Positions 2,576 through 23,766 of a stretch of DNA of 37,766 nt are shown piece by piece. Position 1 is the stretch's first letter; each line of letters begins with the position of its first letter. Below the pieces are notes generated by a model. The model had not been told where the DNA came from, did not search any database, and saw nothing but the letters and a program-made list of their open reading frames with translations. The translations under genes and the position numbers were made by a program. Origin of the DNA: Nitrososphaeraceae archaeon (GTDB taxonomy: Archaea > Thermoproteota > Nitrososphaeria > Nitrososphaerales > Nitrososphaeraceae); NCBI GenBank assembly GCA_016782225.1, contig JADDOW010000095.1:1-37766 (forward strand), in the 5' to 3' direction.

Positions 2576-3129
2576 CTAAAGTGCCAGTAGCATCCTTACC
2601 TTTTCCTCTATTTCCTTTTCAAGTTTGAGTTTCCGCTCATGCAGACTCCAAATGTGGTTATTGTACAGGTCCACTTTTTTGCCAAGGTCCAAAAGGTGGT
2701 TGGGAATTTTCAAAAGCTCAATTATCTGATGTTTATTCAGCCCCTCTTTTTTATGCGTCCATACAGTTGTAGGAACAACGACAGGTCATCCTTCACATCA
2801 TTATGTATAGACACCAACCTTCGCATATTTACTAATTTTAGATAATCCTCATAGTAGCATATAACGGTTGGACTTTCAATGTCCAGTTCAATTGCGACAT
2901 CTATAAGGGGTCGCCCATCTTGGAACATCTGAAAGGCCTGGGCATAATCAGATTTGGATTGTAGTTTTTGTTTTTCATCCTCTACAACATAGTCGCCAGT
3001 TACTTTATTCAGAATCTGTCCTATGGATCTTAACGATATGCGGACATCTTTAGCTATTTCTCTGGTTGTCTTGCCCTCATTGGCAAGTTTTCTCACCAAC
3101 TTCTCCTTTTCCCTTTTGCTTAGGATCAA
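2576..3129 (-). CDS. HTH DNA-binding protein with a frameshift, paralogue 1
   Basis: The N-terminal 45 residues form a resolvase- or Trp-repressor-type helix-turn-helix (EGKTTREIAKDVRIS, then a recognition helix). A second HTH-like part follows (GRPLIDVAIELDIESPTVI). The frame as written stops at 2737. A shift of -1 at 2746-2752 opens about 56 more codons ending in a charged coiled coil, with stop at 2576-2578. The same C-terminal region is in one frame in paralogue 20661 and recognisable in pseudogene 19144, so the extension is part of the family. The shift site is A AAA AAG in phase. It could be programmed frameshifting, mutation or a sequencing deletion. The start is a TTG that aligns with an internal Met of paralogue 20661. 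Role: probably a sequence-specific DNA-binding protein; target unknown. Confidence 0.6.
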
Positions 3130-3157
3130 TACGGTATATTAATATGATAATAACTTT

Positions 3158-19143: not shown

Positions 19144-19705
19144 TTACATTCGGGCTCTTCCAATATTATAGTATCCAGATTTAATCTCATCAAACCATTC
19201 TAACAGATAGTTTCCTTGGGATTCCAATGATTGTACTTTGTTTTCCAAGGTCTCTTTTTGCGCAAATAGGTGGTTTATGTTATTGACAAACTTTATGGCT
19301 AGAGCAATGTCTTTTTTCTTTGTACCGTTTTGCTTTATGTATTTGAACCATTTCAGTAGGCTTGGTATGGCGCTCCTTTAATCCCTTAGCATTGAGATAA
19401 ACTCCATCTCGTTTCGCAATATCAAAAAGTCTGAATGGGCCTGCAAAGCTTGTTCATGAGTCAAGTCAAGGGAAATGGTCACCTCAACTAATGACTTTCC
19501 TTCCATAAACAACTTGAAGGTTTTCGACGACAGAGGTCCTTTTCATGTTCGTTTCCTTTGTCTTCCTTGCCTTCAACTTTTATTCTTGTTCATGCAATCT
19601 TCCTAATGAGATGCGCGCCATTTTGGAAATTTCTCTCAGAGAATGTCCTCTGGTGAGCAAGTCTACCCCCAAGAACTCCTTTTCCTTGGCAGACATGACC
19701 GTCAT
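19144..19705 (-). pseudogene. HTH DNA-binding protein, dead paralogue 2
   Basis: Same family as 2576 and 20661. It starts MTVMSAKEKEFLGVDLLTRG, HTH helix HSLREISKMARIS, then a TAA. After a frameshift it continues FKLFMEGKSLVEVTISLDLT, RNEMEFISMLRD, another stop, LLKWFKYIKQNGTKKKDIAL and a coiled coil (QKETLENKVQSLESQG). At least one frameshift and two stops make it dead. It is useful because it preserves the full family layout, HTH, second HTH-like motif, helical hairpin and C-terminal coiled coil, and so supports the frameshifted extension of paralogue 1. Confidence 0.8.
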
Positions 19706-19784: not shown

Positions 19785-19842
19785 TGTTGTTTCTTATGTT
19801 GTTTCTTATGTTGTTTCTTATGTTGTTTCTTATGTTGTTTTA
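19785..19842. repeat. 12-bp tandem repeat (iteron-like) before HTH paralogue 2
   Basis: Four perfect, contiguous copies of TGTTGTTTCTTA and a partial fifth (TGTTGTTTTA). It lies 80-137 bases upstream of the start of the minus-strand HTH pseudogene. Related 12-bp units precede HTH paralogue 3. Confidence 0.9.
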
Positions 19843-19914
19843 GCCATTGTCAACATACAATCTCTGCAACTTTCAGGGATATGATATAAAATTATTTATG
19901 AAAAACATTCCAAG

Positions 19915-20192
19915 ATGAGAGAAATATTACAAAAGAGGTACTGTGAAGATTTATTATCACTTTGTTGTTCTATCGAACCGGTGAGGTACATGAGATTTAC
20001 AAATTCAATGAATGGGTTCAGCAGTAATACATTGGAAGTAAGGCTAAAGGAACTTGAAAGAGAAGAACATCTCTTGAGGCAGGGTAACCATGGGATTACC
20101 CCTCGGGTAGAATATGGACTGATATACAATTGGAGATAGTAAAATCCGTAATAGGCTTGCTAAAGCGGATGAGAAAATGGTCAAACAGATAA
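19915..20192 (+). pseudogene. HxlR-type regulator, frameshifted copy
   Basis: A shortened relative of the regulator at 23326: LLSLCCSIEPVRYMRF, GFSSNTLEVRLKELE and TPRVEYGL match its LLPLCCSTDSVRYLTF, GFSSKTLSIRLKELE and PPRVEYQL. Near 20130 the frame ends, while one added base continues it as LEIVKSVIGLLKRMRKWSNR to a stop at 20190. It begins at the HxlR domain, without the 55-residue N-terminal part of the other copy. The vicinal Cys pair is kept. Confidence 0.7.
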
Positions 20193-20660: not shown

Positions 20661-21122
20661 TTACTGTTGGTGGAATGATTGCATGTCTTTTATGTAATCG
20701 ATTGCGTTTTTAATGTCTTTTACTTTGACATTGTTTTTCTCAATATACTCAAACCATGTCATAAAAGCTGGTATGCTTCCACTATGCTTGTTTAATATGG
20801 ATACAATCTTTGACATTCTCTGAAGAGTCAAATAGTCTTTGTATATGCTGATGACTTGCTCTGTTGGGATATCCAGGGCTATGGCCACGTCAACCAAGGA
20901 TTTGTTTTCTAAAAACATCCTAAAGCATTGAGATGCCATTGACTTTGTTTTTTCTTTATTATCTTCAACATATTCTCCCGTTACCTTTCTTTTTATTTTT
21001 GTAATGTCTGTAAATGATATGTGCACTTGTTTTGCAATCTGTCTTGCCGTGTGTCCTCTGTTTAGCAAATCAATAACTAGCGCTTCTTTATCCTGTTCAT
21101 TCAAAATCATGACAGCCAACAT
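20661..21122 (-). CDS. HTH DNA-binding protein, intact paralogue 3
   Basis: 153 residues, or 149 from the Met at codon 5 that aligns with the starts of the other copies. HTH: LLNRGHTARQIAKQVHISFT, then a KRKVTGEYVEDN linker shared with paralogue 1, a second HTH-like motif KSLVDVAIALDIPTEQVI, and a helical segment FEYIEKNNVKVKDIKNAIDY. It ends there and lacks the C-terminal coiled coil found in the other two. It is the only uninterrupted copy in the window. ATG start. Two 12-bp units like those before paralogue 2 lie 72-95 bases upstream, which suggests the family binds its own leader. Target otherwise unknown. Confidence 0.7.
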   Translation of the reverse strand: MLAVMILNEQDKEALVIDLLNRGHTARQIAKQVHISFTDITKIKRKVTGEYVEDNKEKTKSMASQCFRMFLENKSLVDVAIALDIPTEQVISIYKDYLTLQRMSKIVSILNKHSGSIPAFMTWFEYIEKNNVKVKDIKNAIDYIKDMQSFHQQ

Positions 21123-21247: not shown

Positions 21248-21943
21248 CTATAGGAATTTTTTTCTATATGGGGCCGCGATTATAGCTGTGCCAACAAATG
21301 TGGCTGTCCAATAGAGCCACAGGTTCGCCAACACTCCAGACAATAAAGCAGGTGCCAACGAGCGTACAGGGTTCATTGACGCTCCAGATATGAATGCCAA
21401 AAAGAATATGTCCAGGCCAACAATTCCTTCAATAGCGATTCCGCCAAAACCTCTCAAGCCTTTTTTATGCACCACAACCAAGATTACGGCCATAAGAAGA
21501 GCGGAAGCCAATATCTCGACACCAAATATCAAAGGCAGAGGATAAGCATAGTCTGGGGAATTGGCTCCGAGAAAAGCCTCACTCCCTATTACATACTTTA
21601 CAAAAATGCTTCCAAGTATAGCACCTATTATCTCTGCTGCAATGTAAAGAACTACAAGCCTTTTTGTGATATGCTTTGTAATCAGAAAGCCCAATGTTAC
21701 TGCGGGGTTAAAGTGAGCCATAGAGACTTTGCCAAACAAATAGACACCAATTGCAACACCCACAAAAGGTGTAAATGCAACAAAAGGAATGCCCAATTTA
21801 CCATCTAGTTTGGCGTCTATGACCACTGAACCTGTGGCTAACACTACCACAATAAAGGTGCCAATTACCTCGGCAAAAAACTTCTTTTGATTAGGGGATA
21901 TGTTATCTCTTATTGCTGTGACCAGACTTGTCCATTTAATCAT
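21248..21943 (-). CDS. Aquaporin/MIP channel in the arsenic cluster
   Basis: 231 residues, six membrane spans and two half-helices. The first pore motif is NPA (residues 79-81, HFNPAVT); the second is NPV (191-193, GASMNPVRS), with the selectivity Arg kept. Spans are visible from FAEVIGTFIVVVLATGSV onward. MIP channels pass water, glycerol or metalloid hydroxides. Its position downstream of arsM and arsC, with no ArsB or Acr3 in the window, parallels bacterial ars operons in which an AqpS channel lets arsenite out. That role is inferred from context. ATG start. It may have its own promoter: a TATTTAAA box lies about 21 bases upstream, with a palindrome above it. Confidence 0.85.
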   Translation of the reverse strand: MIKWTSLVTAIRDNISPNQKKFFAEVIGTFIVVVLATGSVVIDAKLDGKLGIPFVAFTPFVGVAIGVYLFGKVSMAHFNPAVTLGFLITKHITKRLVVLYIAAEIIGAILGSIFVKYVIGSEAFLGANSPDYAYPLPLIFGVEILASALLMAVILVVVHKKGLRGFGGIAIEGIVGLDIFFLAFISGASMNPVRSLAPALLSGVLANLWLYWTATFVGTAIIAAPYRKKFL

Positions 21944-21996: not shown

Positions 21997-22413
21997 TTAG
22001 TTATTCATATTTTCTTTACCAATCTCTTCAACCATTTCCTTTATTTTTCTCTCAATTTCATCTCTTATCTCCCTTACCTTTTCTATTGGCTTTCCTTTTG
22101 GGTCCTCTATTCCCCAATCCAGGACTTTGGGAACAAACAATGTAGGGCAGAAATTCTTATCCATACATCCCATGTTGATGACTTTGTCGGCATTTTTTAT
22201 CATCTCCTCGCTGAGCTCCTTTGGTTTTTGATTGCCAATGTCAATGCCAATTTCCCTCATTACTTCTGCAGCAAGAGGATTGATTTGAGACTTGGGAACG
22301 GTTCCTGCGCTTATGGGTTCATAGTCTTTAGGTGCATATTTCCTAAACAATCCCTCTGCCATTTGGCTACGTCCAGCATTCTCAACACACACAAACAGAA
22401 TGTTCTTTTTTAT
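21997..22413 (-). CDS. arsC: Arsenate reductase, thioredoxin-coupled low-MW phosphatase type
   Basis: About 138 residues. The phosphatase loop CVENAGRS carries the nucleophile Cys and Arg. The resolving pair is in MGCMDKNFCP, followed by the catalytic Asp region VLDWGIEDP. This is the ArsC class that reduces arsenate to arsenite through a Cys relay ending at thioredoxin. The first strand (KKNILFV) lies upstream of the GTG at 22392, so that GTG is not the natural start. At the expected start position stands ATA (22411-22413) in place of ATG, and a TAA three codons before it rules out a longer form. It lies 56 bases after arsM and 53 before the aquaporin gene, same strand, so probably co-transcribed. 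Confidence 0.85.
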   Translation of the reverse strand: MKKNILFVCVENAGRSQMAEGLFRKYAPKDYEPISAGTVPKSQINPLAAEVMREIGIDIGNQKPKELSEEMIKNADKVINMGCMDKNFCPTLFVPKVLDWGIEDPKGKPIEKVREIRDEIERKIKEMVEEIGKENMNN

Positions 22414-22469
22414 GCTGCCTTAGGTTTGTTGTTGAAAGAGAGTCTCATTTTTAAATGACTGATTTGTTT

Positions 22470-23270
22470 TTACTTGATTGCCTTTACCACTAGACTCGAA
22501 ATTTTCCTACCGCCATCCTCATCACTATTTTCCATCTCAATGTATGGCTTTTCATCCAAAACCTCGATATTGGTAAATCCCGCTTCCCTTATGCTGTTGA
22601 GATAGTTTTCCTTTGTCAATGCGCCATCAATGCAGCTGCACCAATCCTCTGCATTTACTGAGTGCTCGTCCATTTCTTTAGATGTAACCAAATCAGATAT
22701 CACCATCCTTCCAGCGCCGTTTGGCTTTAGGATTCTGTGAATCTCTTTGAAGGTGTTCACCTTGTTGGATGTGAGGTTGATTACACAGTTGCTTATAACC
22801 ATATCTGCAGAGTTGTCCTCAACAGGTATCCTTTTTTCAATGTCCCCCTGTCTAAACTCCACGTTTTTGTAGCCGTGTTTTTCGGCGTTATGTCTTGCCT
22901 TTTCAAGCATCTTGTCTGTCATGTCGATTCCAATGACCTTTCCAGCATCTTTCACGATGTTGGCGGCCAGGAACGCATCAATGCCGGCACCAGAACCCAA
23001 GTCAACCACAACGTGGCCTTCCTTTATGTGTGCAAATTTTGTAGGGTTTCCGCATCCCACACCAAGGATGGATGACTGAGGGATGGATGCCAATTCCGTT
23101 TGATTATATCCTATTGCCTCTGTCGATTGTATTGTCGACGCTCCAGAACTTTCCTCTCCGCTACAGCATTCTGAAGTAGGCATGCAGCATGAATCCGAAT
23201 TGCCAAATAAGGCTATCTTTCCATATCTTTCCTTGATTTTTTCTTTGATGTTGATATCATTGTTGTCCAT
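22470..23270 (-). CDS. arsM: Arsenite S-adenosylmethionine methyltransferase
   Basis: 266 residues. The SAM-binding motif VVDLGSGAGIDAF (residues 88-100) and motif post-I VIGIDMT are clear. The arsenite-binding Cys are in place: Cys73 in GVGCGNP, Cys162 in ISNCVINL and Cys211 or Cys213 in DWCSC. An N-terminal Cys-rich segment (SCCMPTSECC) may also bind arsenic. It methylates arsenite to mono- and dimethylated forms in the cytoplasm. First gene of the minus-strand arsenic cluster. The ATG lies about 25 bases from a TTTAAATA box, so leaderless, and a perfect palindrome sits between the box and the start, where a repressor would block initiation. Confidence 0.93.
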   Translation of the reverse strand: MDNNDINIKEKIKERYGKIALFGNSDSCCMPTSECCSGEESSGASTIQSTEAIGYNQTELASIPQSSILGVGCGNPTKFAHIKEGHVVVDLGSGAGIDAFLAANIVKDAGKVIGIDMTDKMLEKARHNAEKHGYKNVEFRQGDIEKRIPVEDNSADMVISNCVINLTSNKVNTFKEIHRILKPNGAGRMVISDLVTSKEMDEHSVNAEDWCSCIDGALTKENYLNSIREAGFTNIEVLDEKPYIEMENSDEDGGRKISSLVVKAIK

Positions 23271-23276
23271 ACATAA

Positions 23277-23291
23277 GTTTACAATGTAAAC
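23277..23291. promoter_or_regulatory. Perfect 15-bp palindrome, likely operator of arsM
   Basis: GTTTACAATGTAAAC, 7-bp arms around one base, lying 7-21 bases upstream of the arsM ATG and touching its TATA box. The divergent HxlR regulator gene starts 34 bases to the other side. This is the layout of an autoregulated repressor site. Confidence 0.65.
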
Positions 23292-23299
23292 TATTTAAA
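23292..23299. promoter_or_regulatory. Shared TATA box of the divergent arsM/HxlR promoter
   Basis: TATTTAAA reads TTTAAATA on the other strand. Its centre is about 25 bases from the arsM ATG and about 30 from the GTG of the regulator, so one box may serve both directions. A bidirectional TATA box with a B-recognition element on one side only would still favour one gene. Confidence 0.5.
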
Positions 23300-23325
23300 G
23301 TGGTAAGAGAAAAATAGTAAAGCAA

Positions 23326-23766
23326 GTGAAATCAGGTAAACAAAAGGACTCTAAAGCCGTTAGCGGAATTGATGGACCCAAGAATATGGCCACCACCAAG
23401 TTACCAATAGTTCAATCTGATAGTGAGTCTTGCAATTTCAAGGGATACGATGTAGATATCCTAATGAGGGAGACATCCTCATTAAGAGCGTTAATTACAA
23501 AAAGGGGAACACTTGAGATTCTGTTGCCTTTGTGCTGCTCTACCGATTCGGTAAGATACCTAACGTTCAAAAAAACAATGAAAGGCTTTAGCAGCAAAAC
23601 CCTTTCAATAAGGCTAAAGGAACTGGAAAGATACGGAATTTTGCAACGGCAGGCCTTTAGTGAAATTCCACCAAGAGTGGAGTATCAATTGACAACCAAG
23701 GGACAGGAACTAACAGACTCAATAGTGGAATTGTTGCAGTGGATGATAAAATGGTCATCAAAATAA
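23326..23766 (+). CDS. HxlR-type winged-helix regulator, candidate arsenic sensor
   Basis: 146 residues. After a polar N-terminus of about 55 residues comes an HxlR domain: LEILLPLCCSTDSVRYLTF, the recognition helix in GFSSKTLSIRLKELE, and the wing ending IPPRVEYQLTTKGQEL. A vicinal pair Cys70-Cys71 lies in the first helix, and Cys36 in the N-terminal part. HxlR proteins are dimeric repressors or activators, some redox- or metal-responsive. Divergent placement from arsM across a palindrome suggests it controls the arsenic genes, and the Cys pair could be the arsenite site. Start by GTG at 23326; an ATG at 23386 is the alternative and would shorten the tail. A frameshifted relative is at 19915. 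Confidence 0.8.
   Translation: MKSGKQKDSKAVSGIDGPKNMATTKLPIVQSDSESCNFKGYDVDILMRETSSLRALITKRGTLEILLPLCCSTDSVRYLTFKKTMKGFSSKTLSIRLKELERYGILQRQAFSEIPPRVEYQLTTKGQELTDSIVELLQWMIKWSSK

Follow-up and report, generated by a model that had tools for sequence, protein, structure and literature searches.

An HxlR-family regulator gene and a conserved candidate operator at the divergent TATA promoter of an arsenic gene cluster in Nitrososphaeraceae

Most known switches that respond to As(III) belong to the ArsR family. The window, i.e. the whole stretch of 37,766 nucleotides of Nitrososphaeraceae DNA analysed here, features an arsenic gene cluster that adjoins a divergent gene of the HxlR family, and the locus raises the question of which regulator controls these genes and through which element of the 55 bases separating them. 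The enzyme functions below are predicted by homology. The genes are:

22470 to 23270, minus strand: arsM, arsenite S-adenosylmethionine methyltransferase, 266 aa, predicted to be leaderless (NCBIfam NF008823, 280 bits versus a cut-off of 263)
21997 to 22448, minus strand: arsC-like low-molecular-weight arsenate reductase (LMWPc domain match; frameshifted, called frame only 21997–22392)
21248 to 21943, minus strand: aquaporin/aquaglyceroporin (aqp) of the MIP family, last in arsM–arsC–aqp (Pfam PF00230, E 1.6e-35)
23326 to 23766, plus strand: HxlR-family regulator, 146 aa, with C36 and a vicinal pair C70–C71 (Pfam PF01638, E 2.4e-18)
19852 to 20139, plus strand: remnant of a second ars-type HxlR gene, with CNFQGYD and LCC legible in different frames

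The order arsM–arsC–aqp is common to most related loci. Because the arsC-like protein has an LMWPc match and misses the NCBIfam equivalog cut-off (TIGR02691, 78.6 bits versus 174.3), it is regarded as a divergent ArsC-like protein with a presumed function in arsenate reduction. In the window, this gene bears a one-base frameshift near 22420 relative to its relatives: translation from the ATG at 22448 is in the wrong frame and meets a stop, and the remaining frame lacks a normal start. The frameshift is either real decay or an assembly base error. Acr3 scores above the cut-off only in G019 among 23 Nitrososphaeraceae genomes (G and L numbers are the handles of genomes and loci in this analysis), G012 carries a weak fragment and the other 21 have none. 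The pairing of an aquaglyceroporin with an arsenate reductase for passive arsenite release resembles the ars operon of Sinorhizobium meliloti, in which AqpS and ArsC have been proposed to act in arsenite release (PMC6205960); unlike that operon, the window cluster is archaeal, has arsM first, carries HxlR in the place of ArsR and features a divergent promoter predicted to be leaderless. Operons of the arsR–arsM type also exist, with a regulator gene adjoining arsM (PMC6205960), whereas the regulator in the window belongs to another family and the bidirectional TATA box is shared.

No ArsR-type gene was identified in the arsenic cluster. The notion that these genomes are devoid of ArsR proteins was rejected, since several ArsR-type HTH proteins are encoded elsewhere in them; such proteins could act on the cluster. 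A further small HTH protein family is present in the window in several copies (2740–3135, 19258–19533 and 20661–21122, minus strand), bears weak similarity to Cbp1 or resolvase-type HTH proteins and has one copy directly downstream of the aquaporin gene.

The region between arsM and the HxlR gene, together with the first bases of the latter, holds the following elements:

23277 to 23291, no strand: candidate palindromic operator GTTTACAATGTAAAC, family-wide form GTTTACnnnGnAAAC (kept in 63 elements of Nitrososphaeraceae and 19 of a second family)
23292 to 23299, no strand: shared TATA box, TATTTAAA on the plus strand and TTTAAATA on the minus strand
23277 to 23341, plus strand: conserved promoter block of 65 bases with constant spacing (ungapped alignment of 53 rows)

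The palindrome is a perfect 15-mer built of two 7-base arms around one central base and is adjoined directly by the TATA box. The original prediction had described this arrangement as a palindrome abutting a TATA box usable on both strands, about 25 bases from the arsM ATG and about 30 bases from the GTG of the regulator; sequence, coordinates and distances all check out, with 25 nt measured from the TATA centre to the arsM ATG and about 30 nt to the HxlR GTG. Taken by itself, the window sequence makes a chance origin of the palindrome only moderately unlikely: when the 55-base intergenic region was dinucleotide-shuffled 5000 times, arms of at least 7 bases occurred in 58 shuffles with a spacer of up to 1 base (1.2%) and in 205 with a spacer of up to 8 bases (4%), and the 37.8 kb window holds six comparable palindromes. 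It is the conservation in relatives, rather than the window statistics, that places the element far beyond chance, and a chance palindrome was rejected on this ground.

A search for the same palindrome before arsM in related genomes found it in two families of the same order: the Nitrososphaeraceae and a second one that is probably the Nitrosopumilaceae. In the fetched regions of Nitrososphaeraceae, 46 loci have HxlR and arsM in divergent orientation with the element between them and usually arsC and aqp next, and six further loci feature the element with arsM decayed or missing. In the second family, 19 fetched loci carry the same HxlR and element, facing arsM in 17 cases and arsC–aqp directly in two. 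Relatives of the HxlR protein above 55% identity, as well as window-type arsM, are found throughout the Nitrososphaeraceae. The spacing of the element is invariant in most loci of both families. In the ungapped alignment, TTTA (columns 2–5) and AAACTA (columns 12–17) occur without exception, and the TATA box, AAGAG and GTAAAGTAAGTG also stand at fixed spacing. The block runs in the order palindrome, TATA box, AAGAG, GTAAAG(T/C)AAGTG and a (G/A)GAAAC/GTAAAC stretch resembling a half-site (23336–23341). This last GAAAC/GTAAAC is kept in two reading frames and could be a matter of shared descent rather than a second operator; inspection by eye found no correlation between GTAAAC at the first and at the second site.

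The two families conserve the dyad to a different depth. TTTA....AAA(C) and the TATA-like box next to it are present in all 63 elements of Nitrososphaeraceae, and positions 1–4 are complementary to positions 12–15 in 58–63 of them; of the inner pairs, 5:11 is paired in 15 elements and unpaired in 48, and 6:10 is paired in 32. Most have the form GTTTACnnnGnAAAC and are, with pair 5:11 unpaired, imperfect dyads, the fully perfect palindrome being limited to the closest relatives of the window. The elements of the second family feature five-base arms, GTTTA-N5-TAAAC, in 19/19 cases, with pairs 1–5 formed throughout, pair 6:10 in 16/19, variable central bases, and the form GTTTACNNNGTAAAC in 16/19. 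From these pair counts, the dyad reads GTTTAC-NNN-GTAAAC in the second family and the closest relatives of the window, and GTTTAC-NNN-GnAAAC in most Nitrososphaeraceae. Part of the conservation within Nitrososphaeraceae is due to descent, since these sequences have a common ancestry. This shared descent with the gene pair, the imperfect dyads and the inclusion of the TATA box in the block would also suit a conserved core promoter—BRE, TATA box and start region—in which the palindrome is no operator and control is exerted otherwise or not at all. Such a reading is very unlikely: neither the TATA box nor its flank includes the GTTTA half, in which TTTA is nevertheless invariant, and the five paired positions of the second family hold in all 19 elements while the intervening bases vary.

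The distribution of the motif points in the same direction. In 62 genomes of the second family within the phylum sample, window-type arsM occurs in 17, HxlR in 21 and both in 16. HxlR is present in 16 of the 17 genomes bearing arsM versus 5 of the 45 without it (Fisher 1e-9), and the motif in 18 of the 21 genomes with HxlR versus none of the 41 without it (7e-13); these values are descriptive, since genomes of one family are not independent. In G126 of this family, arsM stands without HxlR, arsC or aqp beside it, a rhodanese gene adjoins and the motif is missing. The loss of the motif together with HxlR argues against a mere core promoter and suggests that the motif is linked to HxlR rather than to arsM alone. 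Across 61 relatives, the 21-base motif occurs 68 times, nearly always at ars loci; matches such as G005:C1:906691, G007:C1:1122755 and G024:C20:120199 lie inside genes or are deviant and were taken as chance. HxlR matches in the plasmid collection were all distant, below 60% identity, and thus gave no sign of plasmid spread.

In archaeal leaderless promoters, the TATA box lies about 25–27 bases before the start codon. The TATA centre precedes the arsM start by 25–29 nt in nearly all loci, and because this matches the usual spacing, the arsM transcript is likely leaderless. At most loci, HxlR begins with an ATG located 8 nt beyond the position that matches the window GTG, and in a different frame; only in the close group of the window is the HxlR gene therefore likely to be nearly leaderless, and the (G)GTG preceding the ATG in the relatives is a possible ribosome-binding site. 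The expectation that both genes are leaderless or nearly so therefore stands for arsM and, within the close group, for HxlR, which beyond this group is probably not strictly leaderless. At L077, L089, L073 and their relatives, near-identical nucleotides after the promoter, GGAAACTAAAG, are read in two frames (METK... or MKSQK...).

Seen from arsM, the dyad follows the TATA box, and in most loci it stops 6–8 nt short of the start codon, a placement in which a bound protein would cover the stretch between the TATA box and the arsM start. That a repressor on the palindrome covers the initiation region of arsM, with HxlR in the place of ArsR, had been predicted, and the parts of this claim that can be tested on sequence agree: the motif tracks HxlR, and no gene of the ArsR type was identified in the cluster. 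The same placement bears on the possibility that HxlR is an activator, which sits next to the TATA box and, with arsenic bound, recruits TBP/TFB to one or both promoters. Activation is conceivable because HxlR of Bacillus subtilis is an activator (PMC7835342), and on the HxlR side the dyad is upstream of the TATA box, a position open to archaeal activators. The arsM-side position is, however, that of a repressor, and it recurs at arsM-type genes from which the HxlR side has been lost, so that activation appears quite improbable.

The regulator itself belongs to the HxlR family, with 66.2 bits for PF01638 against a gathering score of 20.8; this was the sole match at E ≤ 0.001, and the ArsR-type HTH_5 (PF01022) gave none. 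Its structural model (pLDDT 78) finds 1yyv, 1z7u, 2fsw, YodB and HxlR as best Foldseek matches (E 1e-6), with YtfH, HypR and QsrR also close. An alignment was made of 97 HxlR proteins from these genomes: 72 linked to ars genes, two truncated fragments of the ars type and 23 others. The 72 ars-linked proteins and the two fragments form one clade. Within it, C36 is conserved in 71/71 proteins covering the position and C70–C71 in 72/72; with the two fragments set aside, the CC pair occurs in 0/23 of the other HxlR proteins. A conserved N-terminal Cys at helix 1 that serves in sensing, Cys11 in B. subtilis HxlR, is a trait of the sensing subtype and is not needed for membership in HxlR/DUF24. In the ars clade, this position is not Cys, and a Cys further upstream, C36, is present instead. 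In the model, C36 precedes helix 1 in a region of low confidence and C70–C71 stand at the end of helix 2, and the helix topology can bring C36 near the pair. Three conserved cysteines with the potential to bind As(III) are thus present at positions unlike those of ArsR.

As(III)-responsive ArsR proteins bind As(III) by three cysteines, in sets including C95–C96–C102 and C15–C16 plus C55′; convergent evolution has placed these sets on winged-helix repressors, with a vicinal pair in two types (PMC11868830). The window protein shares with the ArsR/SmtB repressors of the R773, AfArsR and CgArsR types the small winged-helix dimer beside ars genes, a palindromic operator (here a candidate) at the promoter and the three conserved cysteines with the vicinal pair of two ArsR types (PMC11868830); it differs from them in being an HxlR protein (PF01638), with its cysteines modelled at new positions, one ahead of helix 1 and two where helix 2 ends. 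The likeness of the three-Cys set is hence one of functional analogy and not of ArsR/SmtB membership. With HxlR/DUF24 proteins (B. subtilis HxlR, YodB and HypR; Staphylococcus aureus QsrR), it shares the fold, the Pfam family, short dyad operators and, presumably, thiol-based sensing. Other members of the HxlR family sense quinones or oxidants, and the known members of the group also include a formaldehyde sensor; the ars clade departs from them by the added CC pair, the shifted N-terminal Cys and the arsenic gene neighbourhood.

A general thiol or redox sensor, for which arsenic is one of several inducers beside electrophiles, oxidants, Sb, Cd or Hg, would fit the nearest solved folds, as YodB, HypR and QsrR sense oxidants or quinones via cysteines, and CC pairs also bind soft metals (PMC11212059). 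This broader role is unlikely given that the neighbours are all arsenic genes (arsM, arsC and aqp), that the motif hardly occurs elsewhere in the genomes, and that a three-Cys set exclusive to the ars clade stands in for the Cys that redox-type HxlR proteins have immediately ahead of helix 1.

The locus is best, and probably correctly, explained by an autorepressor of the HxlR fold that responds to As(III) through thiols and has its operator in the interval from TATA box to arsM start. By analogy with ArsR, this HxlR is proposed to sense As(III) or methylarsenite and to repress both promoters. A single TATA box would serve the two divergent promoters, and an HxlR dimer would sit on the dyad GTTTAC-NNN-G(T/A)AAAC. 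For arsM, HxlR bound to the dyad would occupy the interval from TATA box to leaderless start and so block polymerase loading; on the HxlR side, where the dyad falls at the contact of TFB with DNA, HxlR would limit its own synthesis. The repressor would come off the DNA once arsenite (or methylarsenite) is bound by its invariant cysteines C36, C70 and C71, and arsM–arsC–aqp would be expressed. Arsenate would then be reduced by ArsC, arsenite let out by the aquaporin and the remainder methylated by ArsM. The evolutionary extension of this scheme is favoured somewhat over its negation: HxlR would have independently evolved a three-Cys As(III)/methylarsenite site and replaced ArsR in two ammonia-oxidising families, and it would act via one operator overlapping a TATA promoter that works in both directions and serves a leaderless arsM.

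Further copies of the motif lie before second arsM genes and singly before a methyltransferase gene, a SnoaL-like gene and an aquaporin gene, at the same distance to the start where measured. At L074, L075, L078 and L084, tandem arsM genes have an operator copy each, the inner copies being a distinct variant, GTTTACTAGAAAAAC. Operator–promoter copies precede a second SAM methyltransferase (L162:1089–1949) and a SnoaL-like protein (L161:3417–3851), whose starts (MSKQ...) resemble that of arsM; both are possible new members of an arsenic regulon. L122 (G019:C180) features two inverted operator copies whose flanks are identical; one precedes arsM and the other an aquaporin gene, a clear Acr3 is on the same contig and no HxlR was found nearby. 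The inverted pair may have arisen by inversion or by faulty assembly. The genome of the window carries other ars loci, L064 (G000:C91), L066 (G000:C90) and L065 (G000:C95): a second arsM/HxlR cluster that is intact, a third in which arsM and HxlR are both broken, and a fourth HxlR gene cut by the contig end, a picture of repeated duplication and decay. Within the window, the decayed HxlR gene (region 19785–20139) is preceded by 4.7 perfect copies of the 12-base tandem repeat TGTTGTTTCTTA.

No earlier description of an HxlR regulator of arsenic genes was found in the open-access literature searched. What sets the locus apart is that its ars genes adjoin a regulator from a family other than ArsR, which brings a candidate new As(III) site. 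If true, an invariant three-Cys set particular to a second family of winged-helix proteins would represent an independent solution to arsenic sensing and a possible new biosensor scaffold. Its wide occurrence among ammonia-oxidising archaea of soils makes the cluster relevant to how arsenic is methylated there. The genome paper of N. evergladensis mentions arsenic efflux proteins and attributes aquaporins to osmoadaptation (PMC4084955); the cluster suggests that some aquaporins of ammonia-oxidising archaea serve arsenite release rather than osmoadaptation.
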